NCBI GenBank assembly: GCA_029879555.1
Contig: JAOUQB010000018.1
Coordinates: 1 to 16,647 of the forward strand
From: Nitrospirota bacterium
Lineage (GTDB): Bacteria > Nitrospirota > Nitrospiria > Nitrospirales > UBA8639
Direction of reading: 5' to 3'
Length of the DNA stretch: 16,647 bases
The translations under genes were made by a program, and so were the position numbers. Below, piece by piece: positions 1 through 16,604 of this stretch. The first letter of the stretch is position 1, and the number at the start of each line of letters is the position of its first letter. The notes below the pieces were generated by a model. That model made no database searches. It worked only from the letters and a program-made list of their open reading frames with translations, and had not been told where the DNA came from.

Positions 1-137
1 AAGGTGGGGAGACGCAAGGGACCATCGTGGCGGTCACCCCGATTTCCGTCGTCGTGGAAACTCGGGAGGGGAGGGTGATTATTCCGGCTTCTCAGTTTTC
101 GGAAGCCACGGCTGTTCTGAAGCATCCCAAAGAATAA
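1..137 (+). CDS. C-terminal end of a probable MscS-type mechanosensitive channel (5' end outside the window)
   Basis: An open frame enters from the left edge and ends with TAA at 135-137, giving about 44 residues. The visible tail contains GTIVAVTPISVVVET followed by GRVIIPASQF. This resembles the beta domain of MscS-family channels, in which a Gly-x-Val strand, a Thr/Ser-rich turn and an Ile-Pro-Asn/Ala-Ser motif follow the pore helix. If so, the full protein is an inner-membrane channel that opens under membrane tension and releases small solutes. The stop lies only 2 bases before the next start codon, so it is probably cotranscribed with the MgtE-type genes downstream. The call rests on one short segment; another small beta-barrel domain with the same pattern is possible. 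Confidence 0.5.
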   Translation, partial: GGETQGTIVAVTPISVVVETREGRVIIPASQFSEATAVLKHPKE

Positions 138-139
138 CG

Positions 140-976
140 ATGGAACTCGAACACCACCTCACACTGGGGTATTTTCAATCCCATCCGGTAGAATCTGCCC
201 GGCATCTGGAGTCGCTGGGGCCGCAGGAGGCCAGTGCACTTTTAGAGTCATTGCCTGGCGATGAGATTGCACAGGTGTTAGAGCATTGTTTGCCGGTGTC
301 CACCGCGAAAATTCTTGAAGAACTTCAGAAAGAATTGAGTGGCAATGTCTTGAGTGCCATGAATGCCACCTCCGCGATTGGTGTACTTCGACAGTTAGAG
401 GAAGCCACGCGTCAGGAAATATTGGAGCGGTTGGATAACTCGATGGGCGCCACGCTTAGGCGGGCATTACGGTATTCGCCCAATACGGCCGGGAGTTTAG
501 CTGATCCCCAGGTGTTTACCCTTCCGCCCGATATATCGGTGGAAGAAGCCATCTCCCGCATCCGCACCTATGGGCAAAAGGCCATGTATTATATCTATGT
601 GATTGATCGAGATGCCAAATTGGAAGGGGTCCTCACGCTCAGGCAATTGCTCGTTGATACGTCGGATCACTTAGTCGGAACGCTAATGGAAACACAAATT
701 ACAACGTTGTCGGCTGAAGCCAATCTTGAAGAGATTATTAAACATCCGGAGTGGAGCCGGTTTCATACCTTACCAGTCGTGGATCGATGGGGAACATTTT
801 TTGGGGCATTACGGTATCGCATGCTGCGACGTATTGAAAAAGATGTTGAAGGGAAAGCCCCGTTGGGTTCGGTGAGTGACTCACTGATGCAATTATGGGA
901 AGCCTACTCTATTACGGGAATTCGTTTAATGACGGATGTAGCGCAGACCGTCACGGAACGGAAGAATGTCTCATGA
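140..976 (+). CDS. Soluble MgtE-like protein: MgtE N domain plus CBS pair, no membrane domain
   Basis: 278 residues with the cytoplasmic architecture of a MgtE magnesium channel but no transmembrane part. Residues 10-115 are short Leu/Glu-rich helices like the MgtE N superhelix. Residues 115-122 (YSPNTAGS, then LADP) match the usual MgtE junction Tyr-x5-Gly-Gly/Ser-x-Met. Residues 123-235 form two CBS motifs (YYIYVIDRDAKLEGVLTLRQL and TLPVVDRWGTFFGALRY). The last 40 residues look like a remnant of the plug helix, then the protein stops where membrane helices would begin. In MgtE the N and CBS domains sense cytoplasmic Mg2+ and close the pore. It is joined by an ATGA overlap to a complete mgtE, so a regulatory partner of that channel is my inference. 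A decayed duplicate is less likely because the frame is intact. The upstream Shine-Dalgarno is weak, suggesting coupling to the previous gene. Confidence 0.8.
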   Translation: MELEHHLTLGYFQSHPVESARHLESLGPQEASALLESLPGDEIAQVLEHCLPVSTAKILEELQKELSGNVLSAMNATSAIGVLRQLEEATRQEILERLDNSMGATLRRALRYSPNTAGSLADPQVFTLPPDISVEEAISRIRTYGQKAMYYIYVIDRDAKLEGVLTLRQLLVDTSDHLVGTLMETQITTLSAEANLEEIIKHPEWSRFHTLPVVDRWGTFFGALRYRMLRRIEKDVEGKAPLGSVSDSLMQLWEAYSITGIRLMTDVAQTVTERKNVS

Positions 977-2307
977 GTGACGATACAGTGACTACCACTG
1001 TGAGGCGACGAGGTGGGACACATGTTCTAAATGAAGCCTTTTTCCTGAAGCATCATCAGGAAGCGGCTCGCATATTGGAATCCTATCCGGCCACCGATAT
1101 TTTGCGGGTCTTGCAAGGGACGACCGCCAAAAATGCAGCCAACCTCCTCTCCAGTATTACGCCACCCGTCGCAGCCGAAGCGCTTGCCCTGATGCCAACC
1201 GATCTCTTGAAACAGGTGATTCCGCATATGTCCCCTTCTCTGGCTGCGGCCTTGTTTCAGCGGTTAGATGAAGATCTGCAACGGGCCATTTTGTTCCGGG
1301 TGCCGGAGCGATACGCCCAAGAAATTCGATCCTATATGACCTATCCGGTCGAATCCGTCGGCAGTATTATGGACCCGAAATTTCTAGTGTTGCAGGAAGA
1401 GCTGACTGTTCGGGATGCCATGTTGCATGTCCGGTCTCGCGCACAAAAAGATGTACATGATGTGTATGTGATCGATCGCAATCAAAAGTTGGCAGGAAAA
1501 TTTTCAGTGAGAGACTTGTTACTCGTTGACCCTGAAGAAAAATTGCAAGCCGTGATGGTTCGTGATTTGCCCATCATTCATCCTCTGGAGTCTCGAGAGG
1601 AAATCGTCGAACTGTTTAAAGAGCGACATTTTTTTACCATCCCTGTCGTCGATTTAGATGATCGCCTGTTAGGCGTGGTTCGGAATGAAGATATTATTAA
1701 AGCCAGTCAGGAAGATGCGACTGCCGATTTGCTCACGATGGTGGGGGCGAATAAGGATGAACGAGCGCTGTCGCCGGTTTGGTTTTCCGTACAAAAGCGG
1801 TTGCCTTGGCTGCAGTTGAATCTTCTGACCGCGTTTTTAGCTGCATTTGTCGTGGGGATGTTTGAAGGAACGATTGCGAAGTTTACAGCCTTGGCCGTCC
1901 TGCTTCCGGTCGTCGCAGGACAATCTGGGAATACGGGCGCCCAATCGTTGGCCGTCGTGATCCGAGGGTTGGCGTTGCGCGATATTCGACCATCACAATG
2001 GTTGCGTGTCAGTGGCAAGGAAGTCTATGTGGCATTTCTCAATGGATTGGCCGTTTCTGCTACCGCTTGTCTGGCGGTTGCCTTGTGGAGTCGGTCTTTA
2101 GGCTTAACCGTCATTATTGGCTTGTCCATGATCATTTCAATGGTGATCGCGGGGTTGTCGGGCGCCATTATTCCCATTGCCTTGAAAGCCATGAAACAGG
2201 ATCCTGCCCAATCGTCTTCTATTGTGTTAACGACCATTACCGATGTCGTGGGATTTTTTAGCTTTCTTGGTTTGGCCACTCTCCTCTCAAGTTTATTGGA
2301 AAACTAG
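973..2307 (+). CDS. mgtE: MgtE magnesium channel/transporter
   Basis: 444 residues, the usual MgtE length. It is an inner-membrane Mg2+ channel gated by cytoplasmic Mg2+. Residues 20-120 are the helical N domain. Residues 121-245 are two CBS motifs (DVYVIDRNQKLAGKFSVRDL; TIPVVDLDDRLLGVVRNEDI). Residues 250-275 are the plug-helix region, and about five membrane helices span 277-440. The signature Pro312-x3-Gly316-x2-Gly319-Asn320-x-Gly322-x-Gln324 is present, as is Asp424 in TITDVVGF, equivalent to the ion-selecting Asp of Thermus MgtE. I chose ATG at 973 because it overlaps the preceding TGA (ATGA) and starts just before recognisable N-domain sequence; the frame is open upstream to 895 but that stretch overlaps the previous gene. 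It is translationally coupled to its soluble paralogue. Nothing essential appears to be missing. Confidence 0.95.
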   Translation: MSDDTVTTTVRRRGGTHVLNEAFFLKHHQEAARILESYPATDILRVLQGTTAKNAANLLSSITPPVAAEALALMPTDLLKQVIPHMSPSLAAALFQRLDEDLQRAILFRVPERYAQEIRSYMTYPVESVGSIMDPKFLVLQEELTVRDAMLHVRSRAQKDVHDVYVIDRNQKLAGKFSVRDLLLVDPEEKLQAVMVRDLPIIHPLESREEIVELFKERHFFTIPVVDLDDRLLGVVRNEDIIKASQEDATADLLTMVGANKDERALSPVWFSVQKRLPWLQLNLLTAFLAAFVVGMFEGTIAKFTALAVLLPVVAGQSGNTGAQSLAVVIRGLALRDIRPSQWLRVSGKEVYVAFLNGLAVSATACLAVALWSRSLGLTVIIGLSMIISMVIAGLSGAIIPIALKAMKQDPAQSSSIVLTTITDVVGFFSFLGLATLLSSLLEN

Positions 2308-2370
2308 CGTTTCGCCTCCCGTCTCACAATTCTTTGGTTCCTTCGCACTTCTACCTTTTCACTCATGAGG

Positions 2371-2399
2371 TTGCCTACCCTTCACCCTTCGGGTAGGAT
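2371..2399 (+). promoter_or_regulatory. Candidate sigma70 promoter with an overlapping inverted repeat
   Basis: TTGCCT (2371-2376) and TAGGAT (2394-2399) are separated by exactly 17 bases and each matches 4 of 6 consensus positions. An inverted repeat CCTACCC (2374-2380) / GGGTAGG (2391-2397) runs from inside the -35 box to inside the -10 box, with a loop made of part of a tandem ACCCTTC repeat. The site lies 37 bases before the CBS-protein gene. It could be a promoter with an operator, or only a weak hairpin after mgtE; no T-run follows directly, which argues against a strong terminator. Confidence 0.4.
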
Positions 2400-2435
2400 C
2401 AAAATCATTTTTATCTCTCTATTAGAGGAGGCTTT

Positions 2436-3203
2436 ATGCAAACTCAACCGTTGACGAAACCAGATCGGGCTCAATCGCTAGACCAAGATATTCGACGCGT
2501 GCGGCAGCAATTGGATGCCTTGAAGAATCATTTAATGAATGAACCGGCGGCAGACGTCCTCAATGAGTTTGATGCGGCGACGGAAGACATGCTTGCAGAT
2601 GTGTTCGGGAGTTCCTCACCCCTGTTGGATACGTATGAATATGCTGAGGTTGGTGAAGCGGCGGGCCTCCTGAACCTCACGGATGAAGCTCCGGAAGGGA
2701 CGGAATCGCAGTCGCAACGAGAAACCATTCGACAGCGACATCGTGTCCTGGAAAGTGCCATTGCAGATTTAGAGTCTCGGCGAGCCGCCTTGGCCAAAGA
2801 AACCAAGAAACGAAAAGCCTCCGGGCCGAGAGTCTCAGATTTTATGGCGAGTAAGGTTCGCTCGATTTCTTTGGATGCCACCCTTCGTGAGGCTGGGCAA
2901 AGCCTGAAGAAGTGGAAGATTGGTTCGTTGTTAGTTCAAAGCGGAGATGAGTATATTGGTTCGATTTCCGAAACCGAGTTGACCAGCGAAGTCGTAGCTT
3001 CCGGAACCGATGCGACGACGACGACCGTGAAAACCTGTATGCGAGAACCCCTGGTGACCATTGAAACCAGCGATCCCATCGTTGAAGCCGTCCGGCTGAT
3101 GAAGGAAAAAGGAACTCGGCATTTAGCGGTGACGGAAAGCGGTCGAATCGTGGGTGTGGTGTCCGTCTCCGATGTCATTCGGTACTATTCCGGAGTCGTG
3201 TAA
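2436..3203 (+). CDS. CBS-pair protein with N-terminal coiled coil
   Basis: 255 residues, predicted cytoplasmic. Residues 10-35 and 92-127 are charged helical stretches typical of coiled coils, separated by an acidic linker (about 40-90). Residues 131-255 form a CBS pair: VSDFMASKVRSISLDATL opens the first motif, and MREPLVTIETSDPIVEAVRLM, GTRHLAV and GRIVGVVSVSDVIRYY form the second. CBS pairs usually bind adenine nucleotides and transmit energy or redox state to a partner; the target cannot be read from the sequence. Translation should be efficient, with GAGGAGG 6 bases before ATG. It stands alone between a promoter-like site and a hairpin, but its neighbours include two CBS-bearing MgtE-type proteins and a stress protease. 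There is no membrane segment and no enzyme domain. Confidence 0.85.
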   Translation: MQTQPLTKPDRAQSLDQDIRRVRQQLDALKNHLMNEPAADVLNEFDAATEDMLADVFGSSSPLLDTYEYAEVGEAAGLLNLTDEAPEGTESQSQRETIRQRHRVLESAIADLESRRAALAKETKKRKASGPRVSDFMASKVRSISLDATLREAGQSLKKWKIGSLLVQSGDEYIGSISETELTSEVVASGTDATTTTVKTCMREPLVTIETSDPIVEAVRLMKEKGTRHLAVTESGRIVGVVSVSDVIRYYSGVV

Positions 3204-3226
3204 CGCGCCACCATCGCAACACACAT

Positions 3227-3275
3227 GCCACCAGAAAATGCTCCGGCTATTCTCTGGTGGCAGCGTCCTGTTTCC
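3227..3275 (+). terminator. Hairpin terminator after the CBS gene
   Basis: A perfect 9-bp stem, GCCACCAGA (3227-3235) with TCTGGTGGC (3253-3261), encloses a 17-base loop and is followed by a pyrimidine-rich stretch with a TTTCCTTTC tail. It begins 23 bases after the stop codon. The tail is not a clean T-run, so termination may be partial. Confidence 0.55.
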
Positions 3276-3470
3276 TTTCATGCCAAAATAATTCCTCCTC
3301 CAAGACGCCCTAACTTCTTGTCCTGGTCAAAGCCGTTCTCCCTTTCGCCCTTTCTGCTTCAGTCTTAAGAAATTTTAATCTGTCTTTAATCTTCCTATTA
3401 GAGTGGGGCAGTATGCTCCTAGTATGAATAGGGTCTAATGGTGGTCTATTTTCATCAAGGAGGAAGAGAT

Positions 3471-4988
3471 ATGGAAAAGAACGGAAAAACAGTCGCCTCG
3501 CAATGGGATGGGAGTCCCGTTTGGCAGAAAAGTCTGGGGTTGGCCGGAATGGGGATCCTGGTTGGTGCTCTATTGTTTGGGTCATGGAATAATCCTGTCA
3601 CGACGTTCGCGCATGAAAAAGATGCTCAGCAGCAATTGAAAACGACGAATCCGCCGAATTTTCACAACGGGGGATTTGCCGACATTGCCAAACAAGTGAC
3701 GCCAGCCGTGGTGAACATTACGGTGAGCAAACAAGCGGCAGTTCCCATGTCTGGATTGCCGTTTGATCCCATGAAAGAGTTCTTCGGGGCCCCTGGCGCT
3801 CCTGGCTTCCCGCCTCGTCATGACCAGGGTCCGATGCCGGATCTCCAGGGTGCGGGTTCTGGGGTGATTGTGTCATCTGATGGCTATGTGTTGACCAACA
3901 ATCATGTGGTGGAGGACGCCAAAGAGATTTCGGTCACGCTTCCCGATAAACGGGAATATTCCGGAACAGTGGTCGGGCTTGATCCCCAAACCGACCTGGC
4001 CGTGATTAAAGTGGAGGCGAAAGATCTTCCCTTTGTGCGATGGGGCGATTCGTCCAGTCTCCAAGTTGGAGAATATGTGTTAGCCGTGGGGAACCCCTTT
4101 GGATTGAATTCCACGGTGACCTTGGGAATAGTCAGTGCTTTGGGCCGCGGTGGAATGGGTATTACTCAATATGAGGACTTCATTCAAACCGATGCCGCGA
4201 TTAACCCAGGCAATTCCGGTGGGGCGTTAGTGAATACCCAAGGTGAGTTGGTTGGGATCAATACGGCCATTTTTTCGCGATCGGGTGGATATCAGGGAGT
4301 CGGGTTTGCTGTGCCGACGAAATTAGCGAAACCCATCTATACCAGTCTGGTGAAATCCGGAACGGTGGTGCGAGGGTTTTTGGGCGTTGGCATTCAAGCG
4401 GTGACCCCTGAATTAGCCAAATCCTTCCAGCTAGACAAAGTGGAGGGTGCCTTAGTGACCAATGTGATGCCAGGGAGTCCTGCAGATCAAGCCGGAATCC
4501 AACGTGGGGATGTCATTGTGGAATATGAAGGACAGGTCGTAGAAGATCCACGCGCGTTGCAAGGTCAAGTTGTCGGAACAGTTGTGGGAAATACCATTTC
4601 CATGGCCGTGATGCGAGATGGGAAAAAAGTCACGCTGCGCCCCATGATTCGTGAACAAAATGAACCCACAAAAGTGGCACAGGCCAACCCGATGAGGCAC
4701 GATGGTCCGTTTGCCGGAGTGGCAGTTCAAGATTTGGATGGTCGCATGGCGCAGCAATTGGGTATAGCCGAAGAGGTGAGCGGTGTCGTCGTGATGGAGG
4801 TGACCCCAGGCAGTTATGCCGAACGAGCGGGATTGGCTCAAGGTGATGTCATTAGCGAGATTAACCGAAAGCCTGTACGCTCAGAGAAAGATTTCGTTCA
4901 AGTGATCTCTCATTTAGAAAAACAACAAGATGCCTTGCTCTTTATCCATCGTGGGAAAGGAGCATTATATTTAACTGTTAAGATTTAA
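3471..4988 (+). CDS. htrA: Do/HtrA-family periplasmic serine protease with two PDZ domains
   Basis: 505 residues. It degrades misfolded envelope proteins and may also act as a chaperone. Residues 20-40 are one hydrophobic segment (uncleaved anchor or signal peptide) with a basic residue before it. The trypsin-like domain spans about 65-295 with the triad His145 (TNNHVVEDA), Asp175 (TDLAVIKV) and Ser249 (PGNSGGALV). PDZ1 is about 300-392 and PDZ2 about 412-505. A Gly/Pro-rich LA-loop-like insert (100-127) precedes the catalytic His. I chose ATG at 3471 because AAGGAGGA sits 6 bases upstream; an in-frame ATG at 3438 lacks such a site. It is monocistronic with its own terminator. I found no clear sigmaE-type promoter in the 267-base gap upstream. 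Members are named DegP, DegQ, MucD or HtrA; the exact type is not decidable here. Confidence 0.95.
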   Translation: MEKNGKTVASQWDGSPVWQKSLGLAGMGILVGALLFGSWNNPVTTFAHEKDAQQQLKTTNPPNFHNGGFADIAKQVTPAVVNITVSKQAAVPMSGLPFDPMKEFFGAPGAPGFPPRHDQGPMPDLQGAGSGVIVSSDGYVLTNNHVVEDAKEISVTLPDKREYSGTVVGLDPQTDLAVIKVEAKDLPFVRWGDSSSLQVGEYVLAVGNPFGLNSTVTLGIVSALGRGGMGITQYEDFIQTDAAINPGNSGGALVNTQGELVGINTAIFSRSGGYQGVGFAVPTKLAKPIYTSLVKSGTVVRGFLGVGIQAVTPELAKSFQLDKVEGALVTNVMPGSPADQAGIQRGDVIVEYEGQVVEDPRALQGQVVGTVVGNTISMAVMRDGKKVTLRPMIREQNEPTKVAQANPMRHDGPFAGVAVQDLDGRMAQQLGIAEEVSGVVVMEVTPGSYAERAGLAQGDVISEINRKPVRSEKDFVQVISHLEKQQDALLFIHRGKGALYLTVKI

Positions 4989-5697: not shown

Positions 5698-6597
5698 CTA
5701 TCTGAAGATCGTCTCTTTTGCTGATTGTGAAATCGCTAAAACGGCGGGATGTTTGATGCGGCGATCCACTGTAATGCCATAGAAGCTTTCTGTCAGCTCT
5801 GGAATGTGTCCAACGCTTCGTACCTGATACTGGCGAGTGATTTCTTTGGCCACCACGGATGACCCCGGAAACAGCCCATGACCTTCCTGCCCGAATGCTT
5901 TCATGGTTGCCCCATCTTCAAACTCGCCCACAATGGTCGGATGGATATGGTGTTTGCGAAACCAGTCTTCCAACCCACGCCTCAACACTGAGTTATTTGT
6001 TGGCAACAAAAATCGTGCGCCATCAAGTGATTGTGGGAATTTCCTGCGATATTGACGAGCTAAAGGTTCCGTTCCAAATATCGTGACCCCGGTTTCTCCG
6101 AGTAAATGGCTATGGGCTTCAATACTTACGGTTGGAGGTACGGGGGCGTCCGTGAGGACGATATCAAGAGTATGCAGGGCGAGTTCTCCTAGGAGGCGCT
6201 CTAATCGACCTTCCCAGCAGATAATCTTAATGTTCTCGAACTGTTGGAACGCGGCTTTTAACAATTTATAGGCCACCATTTTAGGGACGACTTCGGCGAT
6301 ACCCACAATCAGGCGAACCGGATGATCGGCTTCCCGCCCTTTGAGCGTGTTGGTTAATTCATTGCCGAGTGTGAAAATTTCATCAGCGTAGCGGTACGTG
6401 ATTTTCCCAATCTCAGTCAGTACCAATCCCCGGCCAACTCGTTCGAATAATTTCTCGCCGACGGCGTCTTCGAGCGTCCGAAGTTGAACGCTCAGTGCCG
6501 GTTGTGACAGATTGAGCCGGTCGCAGGCTTGTTTAATCGAGCCTTCTCTGGCGATGACCCAGAAATATAACAAGTGATGGTAATTCAGCCATTCCAT
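5698..6597 (-). CDS. nhaR: LysR-type transcriptional regulator, NhaR-like
   Basis: 299 residues, normal for LysR regulators. Residues 4-63 are the winged helix-turn-helix (YHHLLYFWVIAREGSIKQAC ... LSQPALSVQLRTLE ... GEKLFERVGRGLVLT). About 90-299 is the effector-binding fold. The Asn-Tyr-His-x-Leu-x-Tyr-Phe-Trp opening, GRGL, YRYADEIFTL and GEFEDGATMKAFG closely resemble NhaR, the Na+-responsive activator of the nhaA antiporter in E. coli. No nhaA is in the window, so the target here is unknown. I chose the start at 6597 because the domain begins there and promoter-like boxes lie directly upstream; a longer frame reaching 6681 would run through those boxes. There is no Shine-Dalgarno before the chosen start, which fits a leaderless or nearly leaderless transcript. 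Confidence 0.87.
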   Translation of the reverse strand: MEWLNYHHLLYFWVIAREGSIKQACDRLNLSQPALSVQLRTLEDAVGEKLFERVGRGLVLTEIGKITYRYADEIFTLGNELTNTLKGREADHPVRLIVGIAEVVPKMVAYKLLKAAFQQFENIKIICWEGRLERLLGELALHTLDIVLTDAPVPPTVSIEAHSHLLGETGVTIFGTEPLARQYRRKFPQSLDGARFLLPTNNSVLRRGLEDWFRKHHIHPTIVGEFEDGATMKAFGQEGHGLFPGSSVVAKEITRQYQVRSVGHIPELTESFYGITVDRRIKHPAVLAISQSAKETIFR

Positions 6598-6607
6598 TGA
6601 TCGGCAA

Positions 6608-6636
6608 AGTATACATTTAAAAATGATATGAAACAA
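6608..6636 (-). promoter_or_regulatory. Candidate sigma70 promoter of nhaR
   Basis: On the minus strand TTGTTT (6631-6636) and TATACT (6608-6613) are spaced by exactly 17 bases; the -10 matches TATAAT at 5 of 6 positions. Transcription would start near 6601, only about 3-5 bases before the nhaR ATG, so the mRNA would have almost no leader. The surrounding DNA is AT-rich, which raises the odds of chance matches. Confidence 0.5.
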
Positions 6637-6655
6637 ATTCAAATTATGTATTTGT
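6633..6655. promoter_or_regulatory. T-N11-A dyad, candidate LysR operator
   Basis: ACAAAT (6633-6638) and ATTTGT (6650-6655) form a perfect inverted repeat with an 11-base spacer. This is the T-N11-A architecture bound by LysR-type regulators. The dyad overlaps the candidate -35 box of nhaR, so negative autoregulation is a reasonable inference. It could also serve the divergent receiver-domain gene. Confidence 0.5.
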
Positions 6656-6831
6656 CTTATGTTAGTAGGTGGCGATAGCATACGAGGTTAGATTGGTTAT
6701 AAGAGAAGCTCGGCGGTACGTGTAATGGATCCTTCCTTGTGTCTTGTTCGTCTTGTGGGGGCACAGGGAAAGGAACGCGTCTTGGAAAGAAAAATTTCCC
6801 ATTCTTGCTCAGTCGTGAGTCAGCTTTCTGT

Positions 6832-8253: not shown

Positions 8254-8337
8254 ATGCGGAGTCTTTGTTATACCTTTCCCGACCTACTGAGCAACGAACC
8301 AGTAGATGTTTATCACCTTTCCTTGCGTGATGCGTGA
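8254..8337 (+). CDS. Possible 27-residue leader peptide upstream of purE
   Basis: ATG at 8254 opens a 27-codon frame ([20 protein letters not shown] then HLSLRDA) ending TGA at 8335-8337, 10 bases before the purE ATG. AAGGAGG lies 13 bases upstream and AAAGGGA closer. AACAAAG (8241-8247) can pair with CTTTGTT (8263-8269), placing the start codon in the loop, and CTACTG/CAGTAG (8284-8289 / 8300-8305) forms a second small stem. It could be a translated leader coupling to purE, or chance. I recognise no homologue and there is no codon bias evidence. Confidence 0.3.
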
Positions 8338-8347
8338 CAAGGATAAT

Positions 8348-8857
8348 ATGGGAAACTCCACAGAAAACCGATCGACTTCAAAGCCCCTTGTGGGCATTAT
8401 CATGGGAAGCAGAAGTGATTGGGAGACGATGCGTCCCGCCAGTGAATTGTTGGCGGAACTCGATATTCCCCATGAATGCCGGATCGTTTCCGCTCACCGC
8501 ACTCCTGCTTGGATGTTCGATTACGCCACCACCGCTGAAAAGCGAGGGCTTCGTGTCATTATTGCTGGGGCAGGTGGTGCCGCCCATCTCCCGGGAATGA
8601 CTGCAGCGAATACCGTGCTTCCCGTCCTGGGTGTCCCTGTGCGGTCGCGCACCCTTCAAGGGTTTGATTCGCTTCTCTCAATCGTGCAGATGCCAAAAGG
8701 GGTTCCGGTGGCCACTCACGCCATTGGTGAAGATGGTGCGTTCAATGCCGCGTTGCAAGCTGCTGCCATTTTGGCCTTAACCGATGCCGGCGTTCGTGAA
8801 TCTCTTCAAGCCTATCGAGACAAAGCCGCCAGCCAAGCATCGGAGAATCTGGAGTGA
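8348..8857 (+). CDS. purE: N5-carboxyaminoimidazole ribonucleotide mutase, PurE class I
   Basis: 169 residues, typical of bacterial PurE. It converts N5-CAIR to CAIR in de novo purine synthesis, in the cytoplasm, as an octamer in known members. Visible motifs: [10 protein letters not shown] (phosphate binding), SAHRTP with catalytic His50, [12 protein letters not shown], and [12 protein letters not shown]. These are class I features; pairing with purK confirms the two-step bacterial route instead of direct AIR carboxylase. I chose ATG at 8348 because AAGGA lies 4 bases upstream and the protein fits known lengths; an in-frame ATG at 8306 adds 14 unlikely residues. It overlaps purK by 4 bases (GTGA). 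Confidence 0.95.
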
Positions 8858-10065
8858 ATACGATACTTCCGGGTGGAACGATCGGCGTTCTTGGCGGCGG
8901 ACAACTCGGAAGGATGCTGGCTATGGAAGGGCGTCGGATGGGGTATCGGGTTGGTGTGTTAGATGCGATGGCGAAGGGTCCCGCTGCACAAGTCGCGGAT
9001 TTTGCGGTTCAATCAGAATTTTCCAATATCGAACGTGTGTTGGATTTTATCGCGCAGGTGGATGTGGTCACCGTTGAAACGGAATTGGTCCCATGGGATG
9101 TTCTTGCAGAAATCGAGAAAAGTAAGCCGACTCGCCCTTCGTCGTTTGTGCTGGCCCTGGTCCAGGATCGACTCGTTCAACGCCAATATCTTCAAGAGCA
9201 CCACTTTCCACAAACGCCTTTTGCCTCAATCAAGAAAGGGGGCGACTTGCCGCATGCCGCCCAACATGTCGAATTCCCGGCGATATTAAAGACATGTCGA
9301 TCCGGCTATGACGGAAAAGGGCAAACCCGAGTGGCCAGCGACAAACAGCTGAAAGATGCGTGGAAAGAACTGGATGAGGTTCCCGCAGTTTTGGAAACCG
9401 TGGTGTCTTTTAAGAGCGAACTGTCGGTTGTGCTGGCGCGAAATCTACAGGGCGACATTCAAATCTATCCACTCGCTGAGAATGTCCACCGTCAGAACAT
9501 TCTGCATACCACCCGTGTGCCGGCTCAAGTAGCGGACACGGTCCGGTTACGCGCGGGGGAGCTGGGTGTGGCACTTGCAGAGGCTCTTGAGTACTGCGGG
9601 ATTATGGCCGTTGAACTCTTTCTCCTTGAGGACGACCGTCTGCTGATCAACGAAATCGCACCACGGCCGCACAATAGCGGGCATTTTACATTTGGCGCTT
9701 GCGTGACCTCTCAATTCGAACAACATCTTCGAGCCATTTGTGGGTTGCCCTTAGGAGATTGCACGCTCTTGAGCCCCGTTGTGATGATGAATTTGCTTGG
9801 AGATTTGTGGGAAAACGGACCGCCAAATTGGGATGGTCTCCTGGCTCATCCCGGGGTTCGTCTCCATTTGTATGGCAAAGACCACCCTAAACCTGGACGA
9901 AAAATGGGCCACTTTCTTTTGTTAGAAAAGAATCCGGATCGTCTTCTGAACGAGGCAGAGGCTCTCCTGCGTGGTCTTACGCCGGGTCAAACTGGAAGAA
10001 GTGGTCGGAGTATCGAACATTCGGTTGAGCTGACCTCTCCAATATCCGGTATCAACAAAAAATAA
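8854..10065 (+). CDS. purK: N5-carboxyaminoimidazole ribonucleotide synthase, PurK
   Basis: 403 residues. It joins AIR, ATP and bicarbonate to form N5-CAIR, the substrate of PurE. It is an ATP-grasp enzyme: [12 protein letters not shown] (10-22) is the N-terminal nucleotide-fold glycine motif; [18 protein letters not shown] (143-160) is the ATP-binding B-domain loop; and AVELFLLED plus [14 protein letters not shown] (252-279) carries the metal-binding Glu residues and substrate contacts. The GTG start at 8854 overlaps the purE stop (GTGA), with GGAG just upstream. The C terminus extends a Gly/Ser-rich tail (about 380-403) past the usual end. It is the last gene before the inorganic-carbon cassette, 121 bases downstream, and its use of bicarbonate is a possible reason for that order. 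Confidence 0.95.
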
Positions 10066-10186: not shown

Positions 10187-11887
10187 ATGACGATGTTTGT
10201 GGCCATCCTTGTCCCTCTGTTACCCCTCGTCTCTGGAATTATTCTCGGTGTGTTTGGAAAGCACCTGAGGGAAACAAGTTCAAAGGTGGGCGTCTTGGCG
10301 CTGGCGTTGGCCTTTATCTGTTCTCTCTGGGTGCTTTATGCGGTCAGTGTGGGTGGACCCATTCGGATCATGCTTCCGCCCTTCCATTCCGGACCAGATG
10401 GCTGGTTTCAATTCGGCCTGTTCATTGATCGGCTGAGTGCAGTCATGATGGTGCTCATTACGAGTGTGAGTACCGTGATTCACGTCTATTCCATTCGGTA
10501 TTTACAGGGGGATCCTGGATATGCCCGGTTTTACTCCTTACTGGGTTTGATGACCTTTGTCATTCTTTCGCTGGTTTCCAGTCCGAATCTATTGATGCTG
10601 TTTGTGTTTTGGCAGCTTCTAAGTTGGATCCTGTACCTGATTCTCGCATTTAATTATGCGCATGTGCCCGCCTACCAGAATGCATTTAAGACCTTGATGG
10701 TTCATCGCATTGGAGATGTCACCTTTCTTTGTGGGATCTTTATGGCGTATAAATATTTCGGCACCCTTGGTTTTAATGAACTCTTTGAGCGAGCGTCACA
10801 ACAATCTTATGTTATTTCGCTCTTGCCAGGAAATCTTCTCGACATCAGTGTGGTCACCGTCATTACCTTACTCATCTTTATCGGTGCCATGGCCAAATCT
10901 GCTCAATTTCCTTTGCATGTGTGGTTGCCGGATACCATGGATTCTCCAACCCCGGTCTCAGCTTTGATGCACGCGGGGATCATCAACGCAGGCGGTTTCC
11001 TTCTTAATCGGTTGGCTCCGCTTTATGCTCTTTCACCCAACACCCTGCATATTGTGTTTGTGATTGGCGCACTGACCGTGGTGTTCGGAGCCTCTATGAT
11101 GCTCGTGCAAAATGACATAAAGAAAACTCTCGGATACTCGACCATGGGCCAAATGGGCTATATGATCATGGAATGTGGGCTTGGCGCATTTGCGCTTGCT
11201 ATTTTTCATCTGATTGCGCATGGGCTCTTCAAAGCTTCACTCTTTCTCAGTGCGGGTAATGTCATTCATACCGCTCGCCATGAACCCAAGTTTCCTGAAT
11301 CCTCCGGCCATAAACCGACAAAACTCCCCGCCCAAGCCACTTGGGTGACTGGAATGATTGTGACGTTGATTATGCCGCTGATTATTTTGATGGTGGCACA
11401 TGATCTATTGGAAGTTCCGCTTAAAGATGCGCACGGGGCGGTGATCTTTCTCTTTTTTAGTTGGGTGACCGCCTCGCAAGCCATATTTAGTTTGTATCGA
11501 TTACATGCGGTGGCTTCGTGGAAAGTCGCGAGTGCGATGATTGCCGCGTTATTTCTTATTGGATTTACCTATTTGTGGGCAGGTGAAGTCTTTACCCATT
11601 TTCTGTACCCCGGACCAGGAGTGGCAGATGCGTTCTTCGTCGCAGCGGCTTTGAATCCTATTGTGTTTGATGCGCTCATTTTGATTTCGACGTTCTTAAT
11701 TTTTTTAGCGTGGATTTATGCTTATACCGATGCCAAAGGGCAAAAGCTTTTGAATACAGAGTGGAGTCAAGCCATTCAACAAAAAGTCTATGTGATTCTT
11801 ATCAACCGGCTGTATGTGGATCTCCTCTATATGCGATGGGGGAACGCACTCTTTCAATGGGCTCAAAAATTTGGGAACCGGTATTAA
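10187..11887 (+). CDS. dabB: NuoL/Mrp-type proton channel subunit, DabB-like
   Basis: 566 residues, about 14 membrane helices, inner membrane. It belongs to the family of complex I antiporter-like subunits (NuoL, MrpA, DabB). Conserved features include Lys237 in AMAKSAQFPLHVWLPDTM, His262 in SALMHAGIINAGG, DIKKTLGYSTMGQMGYM (310-326), and HLIAHGLFKASLFL (341-354) with Lys349. At the TM5 position where NuoL has Glu in a Trp-Glu-Gly context, this protein has Trp142-Gln143. The C terminus NRLYVDLLY is NuoL-like. With dabA downstream and no other Nuo genes, a role as the cation-conducting half of a DIC pump is likely. GGGGAG lies 8 bases before ATG. The next gene starts 29 bases after the stop. 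An alternative is a fragment of an ion-translocating respiratory complex. Confidence 0.85.
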   Translation: MTMFVAILVPLLPLVSGIILGVFGKHLRETSSKVGVLALALAFICSLWVLYAVSVGGPIRIMLPPFHSGPDGWFQFGLFIDRLSAVMMVLITSVSTVIHVYSIRYLQGDPGYARFYSLLGLMTFVILSLVSSPNLLMLFVFWQLLSWILYLILAFNYAHVPAYQNAFKTLMVHRIGDVTFLCGIFMAYKYFGTLGFNELFERASQQSYVISLLPGNLLDISVVTVITLLIFIGAMAKSAQFPLHVWLPDTMDSPTPVSALMHAGIINAGGFLLNRLAPLYALSPNTLHIVFVIGALTVVFGASMMLVQNDIKKTLGYSTMGQMGYMIMECGLGAFALAIFHLIAHGLFKASLFLSAGNVIHTARHEPKFPESSGHKPTKLPAQATWVTGMIVTLIMPLIILMVAHDLLEVPLKDAHGAVIFLFFSWVTASQAIFSLYRLHAVASWKVASAMIAALFLIGFTYLWAGEVFTHFLYPGPGVADAFFVAAALNPIVFDALILISTFLIFLAWIYAYTDAKGQKLLNTEWSQAIQQKVYVILINRLYVDLLYMRWGNALFQWAQKFGNRY

Positions 11888-11916
11888 GCGCAGCATCGGG
11901 TGAGATTGAGACCATC

Positions 11917-12990
11917 ATGCCTATAGAAGTCACTACAATTCTTGCCTTTGCGATCATTCTTTCAGCCTTTTGCGCAATCCTAGGGCAACGTTCAAAGCTA
12001 TCGTCACCGATACTTGTCCAAATTCTTATAGTGTCGGGACTCGGACTTGGAACCTTGCTGACGCCCTTGCCCATTAATCGATATTTTCTCGTTGGGGTTC
12101 TTGGTTTTGCAGCGTATTTGCTCTTTCAGTCTCATTGTCGCGCGACGACGAAAACCATGAGTCTTGCGCAAATCGCTCTCGCAATTCTTCTGGTGCTGGT
12201 GTCTTCCTTTTCGGATCACTCCTTAGCCATGTTCGCTGGACTGGGTCTAGGGTTTACCCTCCTGCCACTCTTTCCGTTTCATCTACCGTTCGTCTCACTC
12301 GTGAGTTCTGCTCATGGAGCAATGTCTGGTCTATGGGTCACCGTGTTCCTTTCTCTCGGATTGGCTGAGCTCACGGAGCTCCCAACTTTCCTGTCGGAAG
12401 GAATGCCCTCCGCCGTTTCCTGGTTAGCCTTGGGCAGTGCCCTGTATGCCTCACTCAAATGTCTGGGACAAACCCAAATTCGGCCATTACTCACCTACGC
12501 AACTATTGCCCAAGCATCCATGTTATGGGGGCTCACGACGGTGTTCTCGATATTTTCCGAATGGGTAATATCGTTTGGGTTAACCATTGCCTTCGTCATG
12601 ACCGCACTCCTTTTCACCTATCACTGTATTCAGCAGAGGTTTGGTTCGCATGCCCTAGGAACGCTGCCGGGCTTGGCCTTGGTCATGCCACGACTGGGTG
12701 TGTGCTTGATTATTCTAATCAGTTTTGCGGTGCTGCTTCCCCTTGTTCCGGTATTGTCAGGGTTGCCCGCTCTGCCAACGGCGAACAATCAAGATGTCTG
12801 CCTTGTTATCTTGTGCTTCATTATATTCGTCGTGTGGATTTTTGAGAGTTGGTATTTCCCCCATTTAATGCATCAAACGGCTTTTGGAAAAGCGAGACCG
12901 GATATTCCCTACTCGGATTTAACCGCAGGGGAAATCAGCGGACTTACCTTACTCATTGCTGCCGCCAGTTATCATGGACTATTTTATTAG
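11917..12990 (+). CDS. Short, degenerate NuoM/N-like membrane protein between dabB and dabA
   Basis: 357 residues with about 10-11 hydrophobic segments. Two stretches betray antiporter-subunit ancestry: LGFTLLPLFPFHLPFVSLVS (111-130), which aligns with the TM7 motif AFxxKxPLFPLHxWLPDAH of NuoM but has Leu where the channel Lys belongs, and TQIRPLLTYATIAQASMLWG (186-205), matching DIKRLLAYSSxAHMG of TM9. It lacks about 100 N-terminal and many C-terminal residues of full subunits. A structural, non-pumping subunit of the DabAB complex is my inference. I chose ATG at 11917, after the dabB stop; the frame is open back to 11710 but that part lies inside dabB. The gene ends 12 bases before dabA, which suggests translational coupling. 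I know no standard gene name for it. Confidence 0.75.
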   Translation: MPIEVTTILAFAIILSAFCAILGQRSKLSSPILVQILIVSGLGLGTLLTPLPINRYFLVGVLGFAAYLLFQSHCRATTKTMSLAQIALAILLVLVSSFSDHSLAMFAGLGLGFTLLPLFPFHLPFVSLVSSAHGAMSGLWVTVFLSLGLAELTELPTFLSEGMPSAVSWLALGSALYASLKCLGQTQIRPLLTYATIAQASMLWGLTTVFSIFSEWVISFGLTIAFVMTALLFTYHCIQQRFGSHALGTLPGLALVMPRLGVCLIILISFAVLLPLVPVLSGLPALPTANNQDVCLVILCFIIFVVWIFESWYFPHLMHQTAFGKARPDIPYSDLTAGEISGLTLLIAAASYHGLFY

Positions 12991-13002
12991 AGAGTATTCA
13001 TT

Positions 13003-16000
13003 GTGGCTGAAGTGAAAGAAATCGATCAGTCAAGAGACGGACAGCGAATGGAGGTTCTCTCGCTGGTCAAACTGGCGAGTGAGCCCATTTCTCACTATTG
13101 GCCCATGCAAACATTTATTCACCATAATCCCCTCCACGGATTAGAACACCTACCCTTTGGTGAGGCTATTAACGAAGCGACACGGTTTCTTGGTGGCCAA
13201 GGGTATCTACCCAATACAGAATACCGGAATTACCACCAGCAAGGGCGCATTACCCTAGATGCCATTGATGAAGCGTTAAAAGATCAGAGTGACAATCAAC
13301 TCATTGTCATCGGCCATCGAAAAATTTCTCATCTCGAAACCTTACGTGCGATTCTCATCAATGGAACCGGTTATACCGCACCAGATGTGGCCTCAGTCCT
13401 TTTGCAAGAATATCAAGACGACAATGATGTGAAGGCGCTCATTGATAAACTCCAAGCTCTGTTCGAGTCAAAACCACCCACATGGTCTTTAAATGATCAT
13501 GCCACGAGGGAGCAAGAGGAACTTGGGTCGGCCTACATCCTGTCCGCCTGGTGCGATCAAACACTGGGCACTACGGTTCAGGACCTCATGAACTACGAAC
13601 TCATCAAATGGTGTGGCAGTTTTCTGGATGAAGGACATGCTCCCTGGCCTATGCCTTTTCGAGAAAAAACCTTTTATGGTGGTTGGAAAGCATTGGCCCA
13701 AATCGAGCGGTCTGGTTCGGTGTTAGGCATTCCACAATGGCAATCCAAAATTCAACGTCTTCCGATCCGACCAGAAGATGCCATCCTCGAAAGCCTCGAG
13801 GCCATGGCCATTCCTCGTGAAGTGTGGATGGATTATTTCACCATGCATTTGGCGCAGTTGTCGGGATGGGCCGGATTCATCAAATGGCGATCAGAACAAT
13901 CGGATTATCAGTGGCAGAATGCCAATCGCATTGACCTAGTCAAATACCTCGCGGTTCGTTTGTTTTATGAAAAAGAACTGGTCGCATTGGCTTGCCAAGA
14001 CAAACTTGGCATTCCAGGAACGTATTCTTCGATTCAGTCCTATCTCGAGAGTCACCCCTCTGGATATGGACTGTACAAGGAATGGAAACTCACAGGTTTA
14101 CCGGCAATGGTCGTCGAGGATCTTGGGCTTTCACTTTTCGTGCAACACCCCTTGCCCATTGATGCACTCGATAAGAGTGCCGTCCGCATCAGAGAAATCT
14201 GGCAGTCGATTCGCCGAGAACAAGACATTCACCAAATGGCCTTAATGGCGTTGCACCTCGCCAGATCCCTTGGCTTCTCTGTGCAAGAGTTAGTCACCAG
14301 TCCTCAAGAAACGTTGGTTGGATTAATGGAATGGGCATCGCAATTTCCAGAGCCACAACATGGTCCGATTTGGCTGAAAGCCTTTGAACTCACTTTCATT
14401 AAAGGGTTTCTCCCAGGTTTTTCTCCGAATCTTGAAATACTCGAAAAAATCGATGAGTCAGAAGAACCATCCGCTGAATCACGTCCATTGGCTCAAGGGA
14501 TTTTCTGCATTGATGTTCGGTCGGAGGGTTTTCGTCGGCATTTCGAAGAAGTTGGAGGAAATGAAACCTTTGGATTTGCTGGATTTTTTGGCGTTCCCCT
14601 TTCCTACCAAGGGTTTGGGAGTGAGCAAGAAACCGATCAATGTCCGGTCCTGCTCAAACCCAAACATGTCATCAAAGAAATTCCTCGAGCGTACCAAGCC
14701 AAGGCGGCCAAACAATTTCTGGAACGACAACAGTTAGCGAAAACAGGGCATACGCTCCTTCATGATTTGAAAGAGAATGTGATTACTCCCTATGTCATGG
14801 TCGAAGCCATTGGCTGGTTTTTCGGGTTCAGGCTGTTTGGCCAAACCTTGAGTCCCTTGTGGTTTAAACGGATCACGTCCTGGTTTACTGAGCGATTTGA
14901 CATTCCCCTTGGTACGACGTTGACCGTTGACAAGCTGACCAACCAGGAGGCAGAGGAAATGGTGGCCTCAGAGCATCGTGCCTCAATCTATCGTATGCTC
15001 ATCGAACAGTGTGGCCGACAAGGGATGGCTGTTTCACATGACCAAGTCGAACGACTTCGCAAGCTCGCGCTGAGCCAAATGACCTTTGATCCGGACGAAG
15101 AGGAGGAATTACTCAGCAAGCTCCAGTGGACGGAATCTGACCACACGCAATTTATTGAAGACTTAAGAAACCAATATGGTGTGCACGACCGCGCCGCCAA
15201 TAATCGGATGCATCGTATTACGCAGACAGGATTCACCACCACCGAACAAGCGCATTTTGTGGAAACCGCTCTTCGGGTTCTAGGGTTCACCAAAACGTTT
15301 TCCCGGTTGATCTTAACGTGTGCCCATGGCAGCATTTCCGATAACAATCCATTTGAATCGGCTTTAGATTGTGGGGCCTGTGGAGGGAACCACGGGGTCT
15401 CGAATGCTCGGGCCTTTGCGGCCATGGCCAACAAAGGACAGGTGCGACACATTCTGGCACAAAAAGGGATTCATATTCCTCCTGACACTCATTTCCTGCC
15501 AGGTCAACATGATACCACTACTGACGAGGTTGAGTTGTTCGACCTAGAAGACGTCCCAGCGACTCATCGTAAAGATTTAGTGAGACTCCAACACGACCTG
15601 GATGAAGCCACTCGCCGCAATAGTAGGGAGCGGTTAACTCGCTTACCCGACGACAAGGGGTGTGAATCATTGGCGGAGGCAGCTGAACGGACTAAACAGC
15701 GCAGCATCGATTGGTCTCAGGTTCGGCCCGAATGGGGCCTTTCTCGACACACGGCATTTATTGTGGGAAGACGTCTCTTAACACAAGGCATTAATCTTGA
15801 GGGGCGAACATTTTTACACTCGTACGATTATTCCCAAGATGAGACAGGTAAATATTTGGAAATCATCATGACGGCGCCTATGATCGTGGCAAATTGGATC
15901 AACATGGAGCATTATTTTTCCACAGTGGACCCAGTGGTGTATGGTGCTGGAAGCAAGGTCTACCATAATGTGGTGAGTCGCATCGGGGTTATGTATGGGT

Positions 16001-16248
16001 CCCAAAGTGATATTTGTGTTGGCTTGCCATTGCAGACTGTTTTTGATGGGGAAACCCCCTATCATGAACCTATGCGATTGTTTGTCATTCTCGAAGCCCC
16101 GCGTGAACGAATCAGCATGATCATCTCGCGGCATGATATTCTTCAACGGCTCATTGGCAATCAATGGATCAATCTGGTGGCTCTAGATCCGGCCACCAGG
16201 GAATTCTTTGTTCATGATTCACGGAACGATTGGCAATTCATTCAGTAA
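13003..16248 (+). CDS. dabA: DabA, large zinc subunit of the inorganic-carbon pump (DUF2309)
   Basis: 1081 residues. DabA is a peripheral inner-membrane protein with a beta-carbonic-anhydrase-like site, proposed to hydrate CO2 to bicarbonate one way, driven through DabB. The zinc ligands are visible: Cys502 and Asp504 in GIFCIDVRSEGFRRHFE, and His775 and Cys790 in CAHGS ... ESALDCGACGGNHGVSNAR. The His-to-Cys spacing of 15 equals that of Halothiobacillus DabA (H524, C539 from memory), while the Cys-to-His interval is about 100 residues longer. The N-terminal FIHHNPLHGLEHLPF and the C-terminal MYGSQSDICVGLPLQT are family signatures. The start is GTG at 13003 with only a weak GAGA site; ATG at 13048 (codon 16) is the alternative. 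It is in one operon with dabB, the short membrane gene and the PII-like gene. Confidence 0.93.
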   Translation: MAEVKEIDQSRDGQRMEVLSLVKLASEPISHYWPMQTFIHHNPLHGLEHLPFGEAINEATRFLGGQGYLPNTEYRNYHQQGRITLDAIDEALKDQSDNQLIVIGHRKISHLETLRAILINGTGYTAPDVASVLLQEYQDDNDVKALIDKLQALFESKPPTWSLNDHATREQEELGSAYILSAWCDQTLGTTVQDLMNYELIKWCGSFLDEGHAPWPMPFREKTFYGGWKALAQIERSGSVLGIPQWQSKIQRLPIRPEDAILESLEAMAIPREVWMDYFTMHLAQLSGWAGFIKWRSEQSDYQWQNANRIDLVKYLAVRLFYEKELVALACQDKLGIPGTYSSIQSYLESHPSGYGLYKEWKLTGLPAMVVEDLGLSLFVQHPLPIDALDKSAVRIREIWQSIRREQDIHQMALMALHLARSLGFSVQELVTSPQETLVGLMEWASQFPEPQHGPIWLKAFELTFIKGFLPGFSPNLEILEKIDESEEPSAESRPLAQGIFCIDVRSEGFRRHFEEVGGNETFGFAGFFGVPLSYQGFGSEQETDQCPVLLKPKHVIKEIPRAYQAKAAKQFLERQQLAKTGHTLLHDLKENVITPYVMVEAIGWFFGFRLFGQTLSPLWFKRITSWFTERFDIPLGTTLTVDKLTNQEAEEMVASEHRASIYRMLIEQCGRQGMAVSHDQVERLRKLALSQMTFDPDEEEELLSKLQWTESDHTQFIEDLRNQYGVHDRAANNRMHRITQTGFTTTEQAHFVETALRVLGFTKTFSRLILTCAHGSISDNNPFESALDCGACGGNHGVSNARAFAAMANKGQVRHILAQKGIHIPPDTHFLPGQHDTTTDEVELFDLEDVPATHRKDLVRLQHDLDEATRRNSRERLTRLPDDKGCESLAEAAERTKQRSIDWSQVRPEWGLSRHTAFIVGRRLLTQGINLEGRTFLHSYDYSQDETGKYLEIIMTAPMIVANWINMEHYFSTVDPVVYGAGSKVYHNVVSRIGVMYGSQSDICVGLPLQTVFDGETPYHEPMRLFVILEAPRERISMIISRHDILQRLIGNQWINLVALDPATREFFVHDSRNDWQFIQ

Positions 16249-16277
16249 TTCACCAGGTTGTGGAGGACCAGGCCATC

Positions 16278-16604
16278 ATGAGTACCATTAAACTTTACCC
16301 GATGAAAGAAATTAAAATTATCATTGATGGTGAGCACATAAAATTCGTGACGGAAGTGCTCGATCGAATCAAAGCCAGTGGCTATACCATTTTTAGCAAC
16401 CTCTCTGGGAAAGGCCATAGCGGATTTCATGAAGGACATCTTTTGTTTAATGACACGAGTAGCTTGCAGATGGTGTTAACCGTGGTTCCGGAAGAGAAGG
16501 TTGAGCCTATTCTTTCGGGACTCAGGCCGTTTTTAGAGCGTCATTCTGGAAGTATTTTTGTTATCGATGCGTGTGTGCTCAGAAAAGATCATTTTGAATC
16601 ATGA
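16278..16604 (+). CDS. Atypical PII-like signalling protein linked to DabA
   Basis: 108 residues with the ferredoxin-like PII fold: strand EIKIIID, helix EHIKFVTEVLDRIKASG, then a T-loop-like stretch (about 38-62: NLSGKGHSGFHEGHLLFND), strand MVLTVVP, helix VEPILSGLRPFLERHSG, and strand SIFVIDACVL. Canonical marks are missing: no uridylylated T-loop Tyr and no TGxxGDGKIF B-loop. GKGHSGFHEG is the kind of loop seen in PII-like proteins encoded beside bicarbonate transporters (the CPII group). A role as nucleotide- or bicarbonate-dependent regulator of the pump is inference. ATG at 16278 follows GGAGG by 11 bases, 29 bases after the dabA stop. It is the last clear gene of the cassette. Confidence 0.82.
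   Translation: MSTIKLYPMKEIKIIIDGEHIKFVTEVLDRIKASGYTIFSNLSGKGHSGFHEGHLLFNDTSSLQMVLTVVPEEKVEPILSGLRPFLERHSGSIFVIDACVLRKDHFES

Follow-up and report, generated by a model that had tools for sequence, protein, structure and literature searches.

A probable DAB1-type pump for inorganic carbon in a Nitrospirales bacterium, with a putative non-conducting NuoM-like partner of DabB

The closest described relative of the locus investigated here is DAB1 of Halothiobacillus neapolitanus, encoded by hneap_0909 (dabB1), 0908 and 0907 (dabA1), after which a PII gene follows. The order NuoL, transmembrane hypothetical protein, DUF2309 and PII is given for this species in PMC4633670. DAB1 is termed a three-subunit DAC in PMC13144422, and dabAB1 together with its interstitial gene complements Escherichia coli free of carbonic anhydrase (CA; PMC7714395). 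PMC5700660 describes nuoL-ybcC operons that end in a PII gene, as well as operons that contain SulP and NuoM. We analyzed a stretch of 16,647 nucleotides from a Nitrospirales bacterium (contig JAOUQB010000018.1, hereafter the window), which at positions 10187-16604 carries dabB, a third membrane gene that we call X, dabA and a gene for a PII-like protein, all on the plus strand. Judged by its sequence, the cassette is the nitrite-oxidizer version of the known four-gene CO2-uptake pump, and we consider it likely that it encodes a DAB1-type inorganic-carbon pump in which X is a non-conducting NuoM-type partner beside DabB and the PII-like protein a regulator resembling CPII. The four-gene order is not new: it is that of the DAB1 locus of Halothiobacillus, in print since 2015-2020. 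A preliminary description of this DNA had seen in the cassette a variant beyond the two-gene system; that it would be new in this respect is not supported, given the published gene order (PMC4633670) and three-subunit DAC (PMC13144422).

The open reading frames and Pfam matches bear out the layout given in that description, four genes on one strand separated, from dabB to the PII-like gene, by 29, 12 and 29 bases. The dabB gene (10187..11887, +, ATG start) encodes a NuoL-like, putatively proton-conducting membrane subunit of 566 amino acids (Proton_antipo_M/N, 195.7 and 60.4 bits). Gene X (11917..12990, +, ATG at 11917) encodes a NuoM/MrpD-like membrane protein of 357 amino acids, whose match to Proton_antipo_M lies barely above the cut-off (22.4 vs 21.5). 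They are followed by dabA (13003..16248, +, GTG start), for the predicted vectorial CA subunit of 1081 amino acids (PF10070, 871.7 bits), and by the gene for the 108-residue CPII-type regulator (16278..16604, +, ATG at 16278; P-II, 77 bits). A scan for promoters and terminators gave no excess over shuffled sequences (8 vs 7.8; 7 vs 7.3).

X has the fold of NuoM/ND4 and MrpD, including the broken transmembrane helices 7 and 12 (TM7 and TM12), and lacks the first helices of that fold. In the X protein of the window the TM7 Lys is replaced by Leu115 and the TM12 Lys/Glu by Leu283 (numbering counted by hand). The TM7 Lys column is uncharged in all 90 X proteins (F in 59, L in 28, V in two and M in one), and so is the TM12 Lys/Glu column in 89 of them, the remaining one having a gap; no X residue aligns with the TM5 Glu column in the 25 X proteins compared. 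X proteins range in length from 241 to 441 amino acids, and the Proteobacterial ones can be aligned to TM7-TM14 only; the profiles of long and short X are homologous (hhalign, 99.4%). The X profile fits MrpD (94.7%) far better than DabB (3.9%), which rules out that X is a duplicate of DabB, and conservation and structure rule out a chance open reading frame. Going by its fold, X is kin of NuoM and MrpD, and we do not class it as an active proton-translocating member of the family. Because the main ion-path residues are gone, X is unlikely to form a further pumping unit. Its kinship to a full-length fold suggests that X shrank rather than grew. One X protein, 69% identical to that of the window, is labeled Nitrosopumilus sp. 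in a metagenome-assembled genome, probably through a binning error.

The residues of DabA and DabB were compared with the DAB2 structure (PDB 9rd0; PMC13144422). The DabA protein of the window has the Cys2His zinc site and the Asp-Arg dyad of PF10070: Cys502, Asp504 and Arg506 (14506..14520, +) correspond to C351, D353 and R355 of DabA2, a zinc ligand and the dyad, and His775 and Cys790 (15325..15372, +) to H524 and C539, the remaining zinc ligands (roles according to PMC13144422). Glu601 (14803..14805, +) corresponds to E444, the transmembrane-finger glutamate that completes a putative proton path together with DabB2 (PMC13144422). Across 136 DabA rows (135 distinct frames, the window being counted twice) the zinc ligands and the dyad are invariant, the E444 column holds E in 108 and D in 28, and the L658 column holds L in 133; the window protein has Leu913 where the canonical residue is Gln/His. 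The DabB protein of the window retains the equivalents of all seven DabB2 residues compared (S256, H260, K310, S316, H339, H343 and K347), and 89 DabB proteins of X-bearing loci retain K or R, H, K, H, H and K at six matching columns. At the position of the NuoL TM5 Glu, the loss of which in DabB2 is described in PMC13144422, the window protein has Gln, and none of the 89 DabB proteins has Glu in that column. The neighbor of dabA in the window is a NuoL-like DabB whose proton-path residues are intact and which lacks the TM5 Glu.

The PII-like protein is 52% identical to the stretch of Thiomonas CPII covered by the PDB match. CPII is its closest solved PII (E 6.8e-33), the next chain scoring 0.24, and on these comparisons it belongs with CPII, known from carboxysome loci. 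CPII is reportedly regulated by bicarbonate, as the title of a 2016 paper by Wheatley has it. Going by its family, the protein of the window probably adjusts pump activity to the levels of bicarbonate and adenylates.

We surveyed 113 CPII-type loci, comprising 80 from named genomes (the best 80 of 280 loci from a scan with a CPII alignment, ranked by likeness to Thiomonas CPII) and 33 PII loci of the Nitrospirales, the window's own order, with the window included. The named-genome sample thus leans to Proteobacteria, the loci, some of them from closely related genomes, do not count as independent, and every frequency of X is conditional on the presence of CPII. Two of the 113 loci have no dabA and 11 are cut upstream, which leaves 100 readable ones. 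X precedes dabA in 97 of these, in 94 as a gene separate from dabB, in two with dabB cut off, and in one (L042) fused to dabB. Its absence beside dabA in close relatives, which the preliminary description had named as a finding that would speak against its proposal, is therefore not the pattern observed. The three loci in which X is absent form one clade (SH-aLRT 99) inside the Nitrospirales part of a DabA tree, built by a quick method from 87 of the 135 rows; frames below 800 amino acids were excluded beforehand, rows with X were sampled at random (22 of 28 from the Nitrospirales, 22 of 64 from the named set), and the other groups were included whole. Since X occurs in both the Proteobacterial and the Nitrospirales groups, a single loss of X is the simplest reading. 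The survey supports conservation of the dabB-X-dabA set and its attached PII-like gene across Nitrospirota and Proteobacteria. Two loci carry a tandem pair of dabB genes before X, dabA and PII (L067, 1462-9977; L068, 5089-13720), together with a second, distant PII gene on the opposite strand.

With the X part of the L042 fusion as the query, we analyzed the best 120 of 882 proteins found. Of these, 95 are at least 800 amino acids long, all 95 match both the DabB and the X profile, and in 94 of them DabB is N-terminal and X C-terminal. In every one of the 95 fusions the DabB half retains the TM7 Lys, and no charge is present in the TM7 or TM12 column of the X half. Among the matches listed, the source labels include Nitrospiria, Deltaproteobacteria, Pseudomonadota, Leptospirales and others. 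We also searched 295 Nitrospirota genomes and examined 11 fused-gene regions from other families of the phylum: the fused gene is followed by dabA in 10 of the 11, and PII comes next in all nine in which its position is readable. L042, from the Nitrospirales, is a twelfth fusion locus. Fusions and synteny support the view that X is a lasting 1:1 partner of DabB. The proposal of a three-subunit pump with its own regulator in the preliminary description is partly supported, by the conserved gene set and the fusion of X to DabB; a pumping role of X is unlikely. Our literature search, which lacked most subscription papers, Desmarais 2019 among them, found no description of the DabB-X fusion or of the loss of the ion path in X. 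The fusions of PF00361 and PF10070 mentioned in PMC4633670 are different from DabB-X.

For DAB2, structure and mutants led to a proposal that comprises the DabB proton path, the DabA finger, the zinc site and CO2 binding (PMC13144422). From the conserved residues we infer that a mechanism of this type would apply to the Nitrospirales complex: DabA, resembling a zinc beta-CA, would hydrate CO2 on the cytoplasmic side, and inward proton flow through DabB and the finger glutamate of DabA would make the reaction run toward bicarbonate only. The CPII-like protein would tune the pump, and the bicarbonate would feed the carboxylases of a cell in which no gene for a RuBisCO large subunit or a microcompartment was detected. 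X would most likely sit beside DabB, in the position that NuoM has next to NuoL in complex I, and serve as a rigid, non-conducting buttress. TM5 of NuoL faces TM12 of NuoM. We assign X to the position of NuoM because it resembles NuoM, because DabB resembles NuoL, and because the Glu of TM5 that DabB has lost is located close to the subunit interface in NuoL (PMC13144422). We also lean toward a wider reading, in which an entire branch of the DAB pumps has an inactive NuoM-type subunit that lost its proton path, was worn from about 440 amino acids down to the TM7-TM14 half, became fused to DabB in several phyla (according to source labels), and occupies NuoM's place beside DabB.

Several observations weigh against our main reading of the cassette and of X. 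Charged residues occur occasionally at the K310 column (R 22, D 4, H 2 and E 1 among the 90 X proteins; E 9, R 7, K 4 and D 2, together 22, among the X halves of the 95 fusions) and at the H339 column (H 6, E 1 among the 90). The short-X profile by itself matches MrpD weakly (9.7%). X is not universally needed: DAB2 works without a counterpart of it (PMC13144422), and loci L043-L045 read dabB-dabA-PII. One fused DabB-X gene (L222, region 1-3883), in which the first part of the X profile is missing from the X half, is followed over 1.4 kb by small open reading frames only, with no match to dabA or PII there; by eye, these frames look like helix-turn-helix or antitoxin genes. In another report, an E. 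coli can mutant was not rescued by DabA1/B1 (PMC12859837). Next to the complementation that included the interstitial gene (PMC7714395), this is suggestive of a need for X; because it depends on whether the failing construct held X, we do not use it as evidence.

Alternatively, X could be a factor for assembly or insertion, or the place where the PII-like protein docks, rather than a lasting subunit. The highly variable length of X and its absence from three of the 100 loci agree with this. However, the natural fusions place X at 1:1 with DabB in the finished complex, and CPII is retained in the three X-less loci, where X is thus not needed as a dock; a docking role is unlikely, and the explanation as a whole is improbable. 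Somewhat less probable again is that the main work of the cassette is not CO2 uptake for autotrophy but, as has been argued for MpsAB, the symport of bicarbonate with sodium, or pH homeostasis. A sodium/bicarbonate symport function has been proposed for MpsAB (PMC13144422), and an Mrp-type sodium/proton antiporter operon of the host genome contains another dabA; however, those catalytic and proton-path residues of DAB2 that we compared are retained here, and complementation of CA-free E. coli is on record for the related complex DAB1 (PMC7714395). That X is a second active ion-translocating subunit, with two ions moved per CO2, is very unlikely: the antiporter fold with both broken helices, the charge at the K310 column in some X proteins and a proposal that the number of ions moved may depend on how many membrane subunits there are (PMC5700660) are in its favor, but the TM7 Lys and TM12 Lys/Glu are gone from all 90 X proteins (one TM12 gap) and all 95 fused X halves, DabB of the same loci or polypeptides keeps its own path residues, and Proteobacterial X covers TM7-TM14 only.

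The host genome (3.2 Mb, 91.8% complete, 5.2% contamination), of which the window is one whole contig, has no match to a RuBisCO large subunit or to a bacterial microcompartment (BMC) shell protein, and one match to a beta-CA. Nitrospira moscoviensis fixes CO2 by the reductive tricarboxylic acid cycle (PMC8407350), and Nitrospirae organisms that use this cycle typically encode several CAs, a transporter for dissolved inorganic carbon, or both (PMC10880623). A second dabA of another type (1028 amino acids; L041, G000:C78, 1-9110) has as neighbors a SulP gene and the operon of an Mrp-type antiporter (Pfam matches to MnhE, MnhG, MbhD/E, MnhB, chain-4L-like and Proton_antipo_M), and relatives have similar loci; such a SulP/NuoM arrangement is clade C in PMC5700660. 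In loci L059 and L066 the dabB-X-dabA-PII cassette stands tail to tail with another dabA, which the tree places among those of the Mrp type, and the two dabA genes are thus neighbors.

Directly upstream of dabB in the window, on the same strand, are purE and purK (8306-10065), for a bicarbonate-using purine enzyme. An upstream purK at most 600 bases from dabB is present in three of 23 readable Nitrospirales loci (window counted) and in none of 53 named loci, which rules out purE-purK as a fixed part of the operon; L084, excluded from this count for its short upstream sequence, shows a fourth case. The window also encodes a protein with MgtE_N and CBS domains and without the MgtE membrane domain (140-2307), just upstream of a full-length mgtE with overlapping frames, and a LysR-type regulator (5698-6681, -) that, by eye, may be NhaR-like.

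If the wider reading is true, the CO2 pumps of this branch keep the neighbor contact of complex I as structure, with a single conducting subunit, and the unnamed third gene of DAB1 is explained. This gene would gain a testable identity, a non-conducting NuoM-like partner of DabB, and the natural DabB-X fusions offer ready single-chain constructs for structure work. The carboxysome-linked DAB1 design would also serve bacteria in which no RuBisCO or carboxysome gene is detected, and since Nitrospirales are major nitrite oxidizers, their CO2 supply is relevant to nitrification.

The likeness to DAB1 rests on two loci of congeneric Halothiobacillus sp. (L127 and L166), rather than on the H. neapolitanus sequence itself: both match the four-gene order, their middle gene is homologous to X (by the long-versus-short X comparison), and CPII follows. 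In L127, ferritin-like, Pterin_4a, ParA-like and VWA genes precede dabB-X-dabA-PII and cbbQ comes after; most of these flanking genes are listed for the H. neapolitanus carboxysome locus in PMC4633670. The window shares with the DAB1 subtype a third membrane gene between dabB and dabA that is homologous to the Proteobacterial one; it does not share the location in a carboxysome operon, and the subtype name here covers gene content and order only. It differs further in its longer X, with more helices (357 amino acids versus 241-267 in named loci), and in a genome without RuBisCO large subunit or BMC matches. The latter also sets its PII-like protein apart from CPII of Thiomonas intermedia (PDB 5d4l, 5d4n), to which the 52% identity ties it; a locus from a metagenome-assembled genome of that species (L101) has the same gene order as the window. 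With NuoM/ND4 of complex I and MrpD, X shares the fold and the broken TM7 and TM12, and it differs from them in the missing first helices, TM7 Lys and TM12 Lys/Glu. DAB2 of H. neapolitanus is a two-subunit complex (PMC13144422), whereas the window cassette has X in addition and a DabA of 1081 rather than 870 amino acids, which has insertions both in its N-terminal part and behind the finger; the zinc site, the finger glutamate and the DabB proton-path residues are common to both pumps.
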